The notes under the pieces were generated by a model that had not been told where the DNA came from, ran no database searches, and was given only the letters and a program-made list of their open reading frames with translations. Below are positions 3,071 to 32,504 of a stretch of DNA of 32,612 bases, piece after piece; the stretch's first letter is position 1, and each line of letters begins with the position of its first letter. This DNA comes from Oscillospiraceae bacterium (GTDB lineage Bacteria; Bacillota; Clostridia; Oscillospirales; Oscillospiraceae), in contig CACYXC010000037.1 in the NCBI GenBank assembly GCA_902778285.1, positions 1 through 32,612 on the forward strand. The letters are read 5' to 3'. Both the position numbers and the translations under genes were made by a program.

Positions 3071-3278
3071 AGGGGAGGCTGTCAGCCTCCCCTCAGACTG
3101 TAGACAAACCTATACAGAGCAAGTCGGACTTGCATGGGGAGAGCGCGAGAGGGGATTGGTTATTCCCTCTCGCGTTTGATATTCTCAAAAATGAGAACTT
3201 TTTCGAAAGTTCTCATTTTTGATTCTCAAGGTGTCGACACTTTGTCGACACCTTGAGGGGAGGCTGTCAGCCTCCCCT
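3071..3278 (+). repeat. Modular hairpin repeat, copy A, between two identical 23-bp hairpins
   Basis: A 162-bp core (3094-3255) begins CAGACTGTAGACAAACC. It carries three stems: CGCGAGAGGG/CCCTCTCGCG (3144-3174), a 15-bp stem closed by a TTCG loop (3187-3220), and AAGGTGTCGACA-CTT-TGTCGACACCTT (3228-3254). The core lies exactly between two perfect copies of a 23-bp palindromic unit (stem AGGGGAGGCT, loop gtc) at 3071-3093 and 3256-3278. Related cores are at 7571, 7731 and 10284. No reading frame is evident. Confidence 0.85.
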
Positions 3279-7509: not shown

Positions 7510-7544
7510 GCAAAACGTGGATTATTCTATTCCGTAATCTACAG

Positions 7545-7730
7545 AGGGCTGCGGCAAACGCCGCAGCCCTCAGACTGAAGACAAACCCATACAGAACAGG
7601 TCGGACTCGCATGGGGAGAGCGCGAGAGGGGATTGGTTATTCCCTCTCGTGTTTGATATACGCAAAAATGGGAACTTTTTCGAAAGTTCCCATTTTTGCC
7701 GCTCAAGCTGTCGACACTTTGTCGACAGCT
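7545..7730 (+). repeat. Modular hairpin repeat, copy B
   Basis: The 11-bp hairpin AGGGCTGCGGC-AAAC-GCCGCAGCCCT (7545-7570) is followed by a core (7571-7730) that begins CAGACTGAAGACAAACCC. It has the same three stems as copy A: the CGCGAGAGGG stem, a 17-bp stem with TTCG loop (7662-7699), and AGCTGTCGACA-CTT-TGTCGACAGCT (7706-7730). Relative to copy A, stem 2 has A:T replaced by G:C and stem 3 has G:C replaced by C:G, both with pairing kept. Confidence 0.85.
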
Positions 7731-7842
7731 CAGACTGTAGACAAACCCATGCTGCCGAAGTATGACACGCATGGGGAGAGCGCGAGAGGGGATTGGTTAT
7801 TCCCTCTCGCGATTGATATACTCAAAAAGCCGCAGCCCTCAG
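7731..7842 (+). repeat. Modular hairpin repeat, copy C (shortened), in tandem with copy B
   Basis: A second core begins CAGACTGTAGACAAACCC directly after the last hairpin of copy B. It keeps the head and the first stem but ends after CTCAAAAA. It is then followed by GCCGCAGCCCTCAG, the right half of the hairpin that precedes copy B plus its CAG edge. The B+C pair therefore lies between a full and a half copy of one locus-specific hairpin. Confidence 0.8.
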
Positions 7843-9982: not shown

Positions 9983-10228
9983 ATGAAATCTACCGGTATC
10001 GTCCGCAAAGTCGACGAATTGGGACGTATCGTTTTGCCGATTGAGCTGCGCCGCACGATGGACATTGCGGAAAAGGATGCGTTGGAAATATATGTTGAGG
10101 GAGAGAACATTATTCTGCGCAAGTACCAGGCGGCCTGCGTGTTCTGCGGCAGCGTGAAGAACCTTGTGAGCTACAAGGGCCGCAACGTCTGCGCCGACTG
10201 CGTCGCCACGCTGCAGGACAAGCTGTGA
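9983..10228 (+). CDS. AbrB/SpoVT-family transition-state regulator
   Basis: The 81-residue protein begins MKSTGIVRKVDELGRIVLPIELRR, the swapped-hairpin DNA-binding domain of AbrB/Abh/SpoVT, followed by the dimerising IAEKDALEIYVEGENIILRKY. The C-terminal part contains two CxxC pairs (CVFC and CADC), a short zinc-ribbon-like tail seen in many clostridial AbrB homologues. It probably represses stationary-phase or sporulation genes. The frame can be opened at a TTG at 9968, but that overlaps the AGGAGG at 9971-9976; the ATG at 9983 has ideal six-base spacing. It is followed at once by a strong hairpin terminator. Confidence 0.95.
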   Translation: MKSTGIVRKVDELGRIVLPIELRRTMDIAEKDALEIYVEGENIILRKYQAACVFCGSVKNLVSYKGRNVCADCVATLQDKL

Positions 10229-10247
10229 CCCCCTTCCCCGCAACAGA

Positions 10248-10283
10248 AAAGCTCCCCGCCTCTTGTAAGAGGCGGGGAGCTTT
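10248..10283 (+). terminator. Terminator hairpin after the AbrB-like gene, left copy
   Basis: A perfect 17-bp stem, AAAGCTCCCCGCCTCTT with its complement, starting 20 bases after the stop. It is followed by TTTCTGACTG, so its T-run is cut short by repeat copy D. An identical 36-bp copy lies at 10433-10468. Confidence 0.85.
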
Positions 10284-10432
10284 CTGACTGTAGACAAACC
10301 CATACAGAACAAGTCGGACTCGCATGGGGAGAGCGCGAGAGGGGACGGTAATCCCCTTTCGCAGTACAATCTGTGCAAAAAGGAAGTTCCCATTTTTGCC
10401 GCTCAAGCTGTCGACACTTTGTCGACAGCTTG
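10284..10432 (+). repeat. Modular hairpin repeat, copy D, between two identical 36-bp terminator hairpins
   Basis: The core begins CTGACTGTAGACAAACCCAT and keeps the first stem (GCGAGAGGGGA with TCCCCTTTCGC) and the AGCTGTCGACA stem at its right end. The middle TTCG stem has lost its left arm. Both sides are bounded by the same 36-bp terminator palindrome (10248-10283 and 10433-10468) with the core starting and ending at the hairpin edges. Confidence 0.85.
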
Positions 10433-10473
10433 AAAGCTCCCCGCCTCTTGTAAGAGGCGGGGAGCTTTTTGCC
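10433..10473. terminator. Terminator hairpin, right copy (bidirectional)
   Basis: The same 17-bp stem as at 10248-10283, here followed by TTTTTG. It can end rightward transcripts from the AbrB-like gene and leftward transcripts of the lactate operon, whose last gene stops at 10485. Confidence 0.85.
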
Positions 10474-30671: not shown

Positions 30672-31154
30672 ATGGACAAGGAAAGCCTATCACACACAAG
30701 GGCGAATTGCAAGTACCACATCGTGTTCACACCGAAGTATCGCAGACAGGTAATATATGGGCAACTCAGGAAGGACATAGGAGGAATCTTACAAACCCTA
30801 TGTGAGAGAAAAGGAGTAACGATCATGGAAGCAGCGGCCTGCAAAGATCACATCCACATGTATGTGGAGATACCACCAAAATATTCAGTAGCAGAGGTAA
30901 TGGGGTATTTAAAAGGGAAGAGCAGCCTGATGATCTTCGACAGACATGCGAATCTGAAGTACAAATACGGAAATCGGCATTTCTGGCGCAAGGGGTACTA
31001 TGTAGATACAGTAGGACGGAATGAAAAGAAGATAGCAGAATATGTCCGAAACCAACTGCAAGAGGATCAACTCACAGACCAGATCGGACTGCGGGAATAC
31101 TTTGACCCGTTCACGGGTGAGCCGAATAATAAGAGAAAAAATGAGCCGCTTTAG
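30672..31154 (+). CDS. tnpA: IS200/IS605-family Y1 transposase TnpA
   Basis: The 160-residue HUH-type enzyme cuts and rejoins single-stranded DNA at the IS ends. Visible are KYHIVFTPKYRR near the N-terminus, the metal-binding His60-Ile-His62 in CKDHIHMYVEIPP, FWRKGYYVDTVG, and the nucleophile Tyr124 in IAEYVRNQL. All catalytic parts are intact. AAAGGAGG stands nine bases before the ATG but can pair with an upstream CCTCC stretch. The sequence has a lower GC content than its surroundings, as expected for a separate arrival. Confidence 0.95.
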   Translation: MDKESLSHTRANCKYHIVFTPKYRRQVIYGQLRKDIGGILQTLCERKGVTIMEAAACKDHIHMYVEIPPKYSVAEVMGYLKGKSSLMIFDRHANLKYKYGNRHFWRKGYYVDTVGRNEKKIAEYVRNQLQEDQLTDQIGLREYFDPFTGEPNNKRKNEPL

Positions 31155-31290: not shown

Positions 31291-32088
31291 TCAAGGAAAG
31301 CCCAGTTCGGTCTTGTACTGAACTGGGCTTTTGTAGCCCAAAGCGGCGTGCCGCCGCTGGTTGTTGAAGAAGAAAACATACTGATCCAAAAGGGCAGGAA
31401 CATCCTGAGCATGGTCAAGATCGAAGTCCAGATAGAGTTCTTCCTTCATCCAGCCATTTAAGGCTTCAATAATTGGATTATCTGTAGGAGTTCCCCCTCG
31501 CGACATGGAACGAAGTATGTTATACTGTGTATGGGCTTGGCAAAAAGCCTTGGAAGAGTAGACAGCTCCCTGGTCGGTGTGGAAGACCAGCCGGTTAAGG
31601 ACGGCAAGACAGTCATAGTAGGGTTTATTGCTGCCGGGAACATCGGTGACGCTGTGGGCAAGGATCTCGTTATTGAAGGTATCTAGCAGAATTGTCCATT
31701 CCCAATACTTCTTTCCTACCTTGAACATGGTCATGTCTGAGACGACAATCTCGACGGGTTTCGTTGCGTTCCAACATCCTTGCACTTCGTTGGGGAATAT
31801 TTTGCTTTCCTCGCCAGGCGCAATATATCCTTTTCTGGCCTTTGAGCGAATACCGGCAGACTTACAGCATTTGTGAGCCAAATTGTCTGAAAACACCCAC
31901 CCTGTTTGGTCAAACACTTCTCGGGCTAATCTATGGTACCCATAGGAAGGATGCTTTTTGTGAGCGTCCACTAAGAGCTTTGTAAGCATAAGACGATCCT
32001 TTTCATAGCGATTTAGATAAGCTTTTCGTGCTCTCCACTTGTAGTATCCGGAACGGCTTATGCCCATAAGCCGCAGCAGATCTGTCAC
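31291..32088 (-). CDS. IS3-family transposase, catalytic part (OrfB)
   Basis: The 265-residue protein has the HTH_21 segment (SYGYHRLAREV) and an rve integrase core with Asp118 (VVSDMT), Asp172 (FHTDQGAVYS) and Glu208 (NPIIEALNGWMKEE). The last two are separated by 35 residues, the DD(35)E rule of IS3 elements. It ends NNQRRHAALGYKSPVQYK. The first in-frame start is GTG 32088, but the frame is open far upstream (coding ...YEVVEELRVKYSVTDLLRLM), so it is probably made as an OrfAB fusion by -1 frameshifting. The stop region forms a 12-bp hairpin (31297-31331). Confidence 0.95.
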   Translation of the reverse strand: MTDLLRLMGISRSGYYKWRARKAYLNRYEKDRLMLTKLLVDAHKKHPSYGYHRLAREVFDQTGWVFSDNLAHKCCKSAGIRSKARKGYIAPGEESKIFPNEVQGCWNATKPVEIVVSDMTMFKVGKKYWEWTILLDTFNNEILAHSVTDVPGSNKPYYDCLAVLNRLVFHTDQGAVYSSKAFCQAHTQYNILRSMSRGGTPTDNPIIEALNGWMKEELYLDFDLDHAQDVPALLDQYVFFFNNQRRHAALGYKSPVQYKTELGFP

Positions 32089-32096
32089 AGAATATT

Positions 32097-32504
32097 TTAC
32101 TCGGAGTTCTTCAACGACTTCGTAGTCTCTTCGTAGCCAGTAACGTATTCCTTGTTTGCACCAGCCCCTTTCACCCAGTATCCTTTTTTTAACCTAGCGT
32201 TTTCTATCTCCAATTTCGTTACCATCAAACGTAGCCTGTCTAACTCAGAAAGGTTCTTGCTGGTATGCAAGGCAGCAAATGGATTCCCTGGGTGTCCTTT
32301 ATGTAAGAACGAACTATCTCCTTCTGAAATGTACTTCTTTACCCACTTGCAGATCATGCTGCGATCGGCTTGGTATTCTTTTTCAAGCGTTCTCACGGAA
32401 ACGTGTTCATACAAATGTTTATGTACGATTTCAGATTTTTGTTCTGGTGTCCATGTTCGTCTCTTTTGCCCTTTTTTCAATGGCTTCACCCCCCCATATC
32501 CCAT
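32097..32504 (-). CDS. IS3-family transposase, DNA-binding part (OrfA)
   Basis: The 135-residue protein has two helix-turn-helix-like parts (WTPEQKSEIVHKHLYEHVSVRTLEKEYQADRSMICKWVKKY) and a leucine-zipper-like segment (LDRLRLMVTKLEIENARLKKG) that pairs subunits. It binds the IS ends. The ATG at 32504 has no clear ribosome site; GTG further inside, after GGGGGG, is an alternative. Near its end an A7 run (T7 at 32184-32190 on the plus strand) is a good slip site for -1 frameshifting into the OrfB frame. Confidence 0.9.
   Translation of the reverse strand: MGYGGVKPLKKGQKRRTWTPEQKSEIVHKHLYEHVSVRTLEKEYQADRSMICKWVKKYISEGDSSFLHKGHPGNPFAALHTSKNLSELDRLRLMVTKLEIENARLKKGYWVKGAGANKEYVTGYEETTKSLKNSE

Follow-up and report, generated by a model that had tools for sequence, protein, structure and literature searches.

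A repeated core between duplicated terminator hairpins in an Oscillospiraceae genome: a probable non-autonomous IS1182-related element that duplicates its palindromic target

The window, which here denotes the whole analysed stretch of 32,612 nucleotides from an Oscillospiraceae bacterium (contig CACYXC010000037.1 of assembly GCA_902778285.1), contains a putative AbrB-like gene on the forward strand (9983-10228; labelled from the appearance of its ORF), whose terminator forms the site discussed in the following. Downstream of this gene, a 36-bp palindrome, AAAGCTCCCCGCCTCTTGTAAGAGGCGGGGAGCTTT, is present in two identical copies at positions 10248-10283 and 10433-10468, the former with 17-bp arms and a 2-nt loop. 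Between the two copies lies a core of 149 bp (10284-10432, forward strand) that contains no transposase. The first-pass annotation of this DNA had described exactly this arrangement, a terminator perfectly duplicated around a 149-bp core, and had correctly noted that only the right copy keeps its T-run, which reads GAGCTTTTTG, while at the left copy the run is cut short and the sequence passes into the element as GAGCTTTCTGACTG. The head sequence it quoted, CAGACTGTAGACAAACC, is inexact for this copy, which starts with the one-base variant CTGACTGTAGACAAACC; the exact family head is found in the window at positions 3094 and 7731, and a version that is one base off at 7571. Terminal inverted repeats are present but imperfect (head (T)CAGACTGTAGACAAA vs tail TTTGTCGACAGCTTGA), and the arms 10247-10298 and 10418-10469 are 88% complementary if the hairpins are counted in. 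A search with up to three mismatches found the 30-bp inner part of the hairpin only at these two places in the genome. This rules out that the hairpin is a piece of a dispersed repeat and assigns the 36-bp sequence to the site, not to the repeat.

Two further sites occupied by the same family are located in the window. The second copy (3094-3255, forward strand) is flanked by the hairpin AGGGGAGGCTGTCAGCCTCCCCT at 3071-3093 and by an identical hairpin at 3256-3278. The third site (7544-7840) has a composite organization: a left hairpin, GAGGGCTGCGGCAAACGCCGCAGCCCTC (7544-7571), is followed by a complete element with the head GACTGAAGACAAACC (7572-7730, forward strand), by a truncated second element that directly abuts the first (7731-7828, forward strand) and by the remnant GCCGCAGCCCTC of a right hairpin (7829-7840). 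Other features of the window include a ribosomal protein L10 leader (L10_leader, RF00557; 17101-17231, 66.5 bits), the sole Rfam 15 family to exceed its gathering score, and, judged by their translations, a putative IS200-type transposase ORF (30672-31154) and a putative IS3-type ORF pair (31291-32504).

In the genome of origin, the head pattern was recovered at about 148 sites when up to three mismatches were allowed, compared with one site for the reversed pattern that served as a control. A search with the core, in which 40 of 167 candidates were scored, yielded at least 69 matches, many of them secondary. Most copies of the family are about 120-165 bp long. The survey of flanking sequences was based on the 84 distinct sites with an exact, zero-mismatch head. 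Twelve of these are cut by contig ends or N, leaving 72 copies with usable flanks; eight of the 84 stop at contig ends after 92-98 nt of element (L021, L034, L036, L037, L190, L200, L213 and L217). Assembly thus breaks off at this repeat, and more copies may exist than were counted.

At 67 of the 72 usable copies, the element is flanked by an exact direct repeat of 12 bp or more, which reaches at least 16 bp at 62 and at least 20 bp at 59 of them. If the left flank of one copy is paired with the right flank of another, a repeat of at least 12 bp is seen in only 20 of 1424 pairings. In almost every case, the repeated sequence is a palindromic hairpin, which varies between sites around a shared core, and 68 of the 72 copies have a stem of 7 bp or more in their left flank. 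A repeat of this length is lacking at L019, where a single mismatch within an otherwise duplicated hairpin limits the exact match to 11 bp; at L179, whose right hairpin is partly lost; and at L195, a copy that apparently lies inside a reading frame and carries the repeat AGAACT (6 bp) at the middle of a 12-bp palindrome, GGAAGAACTTCC. L207 shows unlike hairpins on its two sides, and the composite site of the window (7572-7840) is the fifth of the five usable copies without a repeat of at least 12 bp. Cores that lack flanking duplicates, which the first-pass annotation had named as evidence against its proposal if they were to predominate, hence amount to just four or five of 72, and a hairpin pair without a core, its other counterexample, was not met at related sites.

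The geometry of the duplication was analysed for the 60 copies in this genome whose repeat spans 20 bp or more. Repeat length ranges from 20 to 42 bp with a median of 27 bp. When the best hairpin was sought within 15 nt of the repeat, it was centred no more than 2 bp from the centre of the repeat in 54 of 60 copies, and in 50-52 of 60 when the search took in up to 100 nt of outer flank. In control windows placed 60 nt away, centring was found in 8 of 60 cases, with a mean stem score of 5.2 vs 12.2. The length of the repeat correlates with that of the hairpin (r = 0.83; 0.49-0.83 with other search windows). When the search window extended 40 nt to either side, the hairpin was centred in only 15 of 60 copies, with r = 0.48, and this low centring is read as a pick-up of the palindromic right end of the element itself. 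The duplicated hairpins resemble intrinsic terminators: the 8 nt to the right of the right copy contain on average 3.9 T and the 8 nt to the left of the left copy 4.15 A, without an orientation bias (21 vs 26). The recurrence of the hairpin at 67 of 72 copies together with its dyad centring identifies the core as a non-autonomous element and the hairpin as its target-site duplication. The element is short, free of a transposase, dispersed in many copies and bounded by terminal inverted repeats and a target-site duplication, as is characteristic of MITEs.

Related cores are present in 13 of 150 genomes of the family, the genome of origin included, and duplicated hairpins are visible in other genomes at L055, L056, L058 and L066. 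The exact head occurs in at least 102 stretches from named genomes, mostly of Firmicutes. Of 101 listed exact-head sites with sufficient flank, 88 possess a stem of at least 6 bp that ends no more than 6 nt from the head, as do 223 of 2020 shuffled flanks. A hairpin repeat of at least 14 bp was detected at 18 of the 37 listed sites with at least 2.5 kb of downstream sequence and in none of 360 swapped pairings; some of the 19 long sites without such a repeat may be chance matches, deletions or rearrangements.

The same head is carried by complete insertion sequences. L107, from an uncultured member of the Firmicutes, encodes a 500-aa transposase that scores 447.2 bits against the IS1182 model NF033551 (cut-off 270) and also contains the DUF772 and DDE_Tnp_1_6 domains. 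Its ends are TCAGACTGTAGACAAACCCC and GGGGTTTGTCTACGGTCTGA and begin with the same head of 17 nt; a 33-bp hairpin is present on both sides. In Dysosmobacter (L123), a transposase with 447 bits for NF033551 and the same head is associated with a 25-bp hairpin repeat around a composite insert. The family head is exact at the ends of both L107 and L123, from which the window copy departs by one base. Among 30 loci with NF033551 matches, taken from 300 genomes of the family, a duplicated hairpin was seen at four (L246, L247, L251 and L252). A relative of the L107 transposase is found in 15 of 102 genomes of the genus, the genome of origin not being among them; of the ten loci read in this set, L296 shows a 41-bp hairpin on both sides and L293 two unlike hairpins.

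A tblastn search retrieved 335 plasmid records, 11 of which were read. In 8 of these 11 named plasmid copies, a complete insertion sequence is enclosed by a duplicated hairpin; the hosts are Enterococcus casseliflavus, Acetoanaerobium noterae, Lactococcus sp., Peribacillus sp. (pB), Sutcliffiella horikoshii, Staphylococcus arlettae, Cytobacillus firmus and the fusobacterium Cetobacterium somerae. The copies of Peribacillus pA and of a P. muralis plasmid have unlike hairpins on their two sides, and that of Arthrobacter citreus is missing a clear left end. Two different flanking hairpins were observed at L244, L255, L276, L283 and L293, as at L207 in the genome of origin. Such pairs go beyond simple duplication and may arise from exchange between copies, assembly error or another route of transposition. 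Exchange between copies found no support at L207, whose right flank matches that of L185 over only about 90 bp.

Plasmids also allowed filled sites to be compared with empty ones. In Lactococcus, the filled plasmid pUCCL626B carries AAAGAACCTCTTGGTTCTTT on each side of the insertion sequence, and p229B, pNZ4000 and pUC77B (L284, L285 and L289), which are three of 35 other records with a matching left flank, have a single uninterrupted palindrome. Of the 32-bp palindrome, the inner 20 bp form the repeat in this case, still centred, so the cut does not always fall at the very foot of the hairpin. Similarly, C. firmus CK19 is filled, with a 35-bp hairpin on each side of the insertion sequence, and C. 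oceanisediminis 2691 and CK22 (L286 and L291) are empty, with one hairpin. In both pairs, one hairpin becomes two with precision and the flanks remain unchanged. The expectation of the first-pass annotation that empty loci would show one terminator and filled loci two was thus borne out on the plasmids of Lactococcus and Cytobacillus. At the locus of the window itself, no strict empty site was found among 19 congeneric loci downstream of the AbrB-like gene. The nearest congeners are 72-84% identical in this gene and have diverged downstream of it, too far to be counted as empty sites. The head, tail and middle motifs of the family, at up to three mismatches, are absent from 18 of the 19 loci, the exception being L234, where a single match resembling the head lies on the opposite strand. 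No empty sites were found either for the copies of E. casseliflavus and S. arlettae, as other plasmids share one flank only.

The right end of the element is itself palindromic and deserves consideration in this context. At 10403-10433, it reads TCAAGCTGTCGACA-CTT-TGTCGACAGCTTGA and consists of the outward end TTTGTCGACAGCTTG and an inverted copy thereof. Of 72 right ends found in the genome, 67 pair over at least 5 bp beyond the core palindrome, and in 11 of these 67 the inner arm pairs over at least 9 bp, into its own target (shuffled mean 3.3, maximum 9, in 1000 shuffles). This match of the inner arm to the target might be explained if the outer arm were copied locally onto the inner one, during gap repair or later. 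The palindrome at the right end may even preserve a trace of past targets, as the pairing of its inner arm with the present one exceeds chance. Because copying between arms seems to occur, these 11 of 67 cases also lend some support to the alternative raised by the first-pass annotation, i.e., that the flanking hairpins were copied outward after insertion, by gene conversion or by template switching at palindromic ends. Complete insertion sequences without a palindromic right end, however, duplicate their hairpins in the same way (L107 and the plasmid copies), and the filled and empty sites differ by the step from one hairpin to two within unchanged flanks. Outward copying was therefore set aside as mostly refuted and is regarded as very unlikely.

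Taken together, hairpin duplication at nearly all usable copies, with a variable length and dyad centring, and the same outcome for complete IS1182-family elements, with a single hairpin at the empty sites, lead to the conclusion that the core belongs, as a MITE-like, non-autonomous element, to one branch of the IS1182 family, is presumably mobilised in trans and duplicates hairpins at palindromes (probability roughly 0.88). The proposal of the first-pass annotation that a mobile element targets and duplicates terminator palindromes is upheld by these data. The element shares its ends with IS1182 and has no transposase of its own; in its genome of origin, at an assembly completeness of 89%, neither an IS1182 transposase (NF033551, PF13751 = DDE_Tnp_1_6) nor a relative of that of L107 was found.

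In the proposed mechanism, an IS1182-type transposase with matching ends would mobilise the core in trans. It would select a palindrome in the DNA, mostly an intrinsic terminator and of any sequence, and would join each element end to one of its strands, the two points of joining lying symmetrically at the stem base or close to it. The stagger between the joins would then be the hairpin itself, and gap repair would leave one copy of it on each side of the element. The target would presumably be recognised as an extruded cruciform or hairpin and not as double-stranded DNA with dyad symmetry. The same outcome could be reached if the transposase recognised double-stranded dyad symmetry or paused transcription and termination complexes, and the prevalence of terminator-like targets (3.9 T and 4.15 A of 8) without orientation bias is in agreement with this. 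The apparent use of the in-frame palindrome at L195 speaks against such recognition, however, and the clean centring over 20-42 bp is more easily reconciled with a footed structure than with a protein of variable span, which makes recognition without a cruciform rather unlikely.

Palindrome targeting as such has precedents. IS1272 as well as TnSha1 and TnSha2, all of the IS1182 family, have been described in terms of “inverted repeat-replacing” or “stem-loop replacing” transposition (PMC5678879, PMC4923244). For IS1272, Wan et al. proposed removal of the stem-loop by pathway a of a cruciform model; their hypothetical pathway b would duplicate the entire stem-loop through joining at the 5' feet of the cruciform (PMC5678879). 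Siguier et al., as quoted in PMC5678879 and PMC4923244, stated without detail that some IS1182 members target palindromic sequences. The element resembles IS1272 and TnSha in its association with an IS1182-family DDE transposase, in targets that are set by palindromy and not by sequence and in the frequent use of terminators. Inverted repeats of any sequence are targeted, as by IS1272, but the hairpin is not deleted: IS1272 removes it wholly or partly without a target duplication, whereas the element studied here duplicates it. Prokaryotic MITEs such as BOX, RUP and SPRITE likewise are short, non-coding, IS-related, intergenic and present in many copies, but are described with AT-rich or other site preferences, and a terminator hairpin as target duplication sets the present element apart from the MITEs in the passages of PMC10969869 consulted. 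In the literature searched (few subscription papers, and ISfinder aside), no report of a whole-hairpin target duplication by an insertion sequence or MITE was found save for the hypothetical pathway in PMC5678879. Within this literature, the IS1182 family and its palindrome targeting are thus already known, and hairpin duplication appears only as that hypothetical pathway. The initial remark that duplication of a whole hairpin is untypical of known insertion sequences was accordingly a fair one, although palindrome targeting by the IS1182 family is established and IS1272 removes the hairpin.

Elements of the IS110/IS1111, IS621 and IS1397 type and similar ones insert into REP or attC palindromes and are tied to the sequence of one repeat family. 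They share with the present element the use of palindromes as targets, but each target hairpin is a different one here, and elements of this type are not known to duplicate the palindrome. Direct repeats tabulated for the IS1182 family vary widely in length (0-60 bp), and if this is so, curators may be aware of such long repeats.

Duplication and removal of a hairpin have both occurred at one site. In C. pseudoceanisediminis BNO1 (L290), a different insertion sequence of the IS1182 family, with the ends GGCTGGGACAAAACC and GTCCCAGCC, resides in the same hairpin as that of C. firmus CK19. The hairpin interior is gone in this case, leaving AAGAAGA on the left and TCTTCTT on the right, and the transposase is about 53% identical to those annotated as ISSau3 and ISSep1. 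In a midpoint-rooted tree of 38 transposases, from which two rows were skipped as too short, a clade of 17 rows with a support of 99/100 unites L290 with 16 loci without a hairpin repeat. All 13 hairpin-duplicating rows fall outside this clade, as do L255 and L276, both with unlike hairpins. The duplicating rows do not constitute a pure group, since five rows without a demonstrated repeat are interspersed among them (L245, L248, L254, L249 and L280), the first three of which have contig ends or short flanks; L244 is probably misplaced owing to a wrong frame. At a single Cytobacillus hairpin, two branches of the IS1182 family have consequently produced both outcomes, duplication and removal, and these opposite results make the IS1272 model of Wan et al. 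testable with natural enzymes.

A more far-reaching interpretation, to which an even chance is given, holds that this IS1182 branch reads the shape of DNA: an extruded hairpin or cruciform of any sequence would be cut symmetrically at or near its feet, so that the target sets the duplication, and a sister branch would delete the hairpin. DDE transposases typically produce staggers of one fixed length; a stagger that follows the palindrome of the target itself suggests that living cells offer DNA structure for recognition. If shape reading holds true, the length of the duplication (20 to 42 bp here) would be fixed by the target and not by the enzyme, the sister branch would attack the other side of the structure, and one family would encompass both outcomes of a structure-guided reaction. 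Moreover, a working terminator on the far side would have allowed the MITE to fill well over 100 terminators of one genome.

Since the near terminator copy is without a U-tract and the far copy retains one, read-through from either side would enter the element and stop at the far copy. The neighbouring gene thus likely stays insulated, and terminators would represent harmless landing sites, which would account for an element occupying them with no damage to adjacent genes. Elements of this kind, which otherwise interrupt assemblies and obscure terminator annotation, can be found by a clear signature, identical hairpins on both sides.

The core also contains hairpins with compensatory changes. 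In an alignment of 11 of 20 distinct cores, which come from different genomes, 15 of 40 predicted pairs in the core hairpins are changed on both sides. Compensatory changes of this kind would be in line with an immobile repeat, i.e., a composite regulatory unit that segmental duplication has dispersed or a structured, two-terminator RNA. Yet the copies share the core but differ in the flanking hairpin, the ends match those of complete transposons, and a search of the core (10284-10432) against Rfam 15 gave no family above the gathering score, so that an immobile unit appears extremely improbable. For the mobile element favoured here, a fold of the core, in DNA or in RNA, may be of importance. 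In three other genera of the family (L057, L061 and L063), the middle of the core, GCGAGAGGGG...CCCCTCTCGCGCTCTCCCCATGC, is located directly downstream of tRNA genes and terminators, without the usual head and tail.
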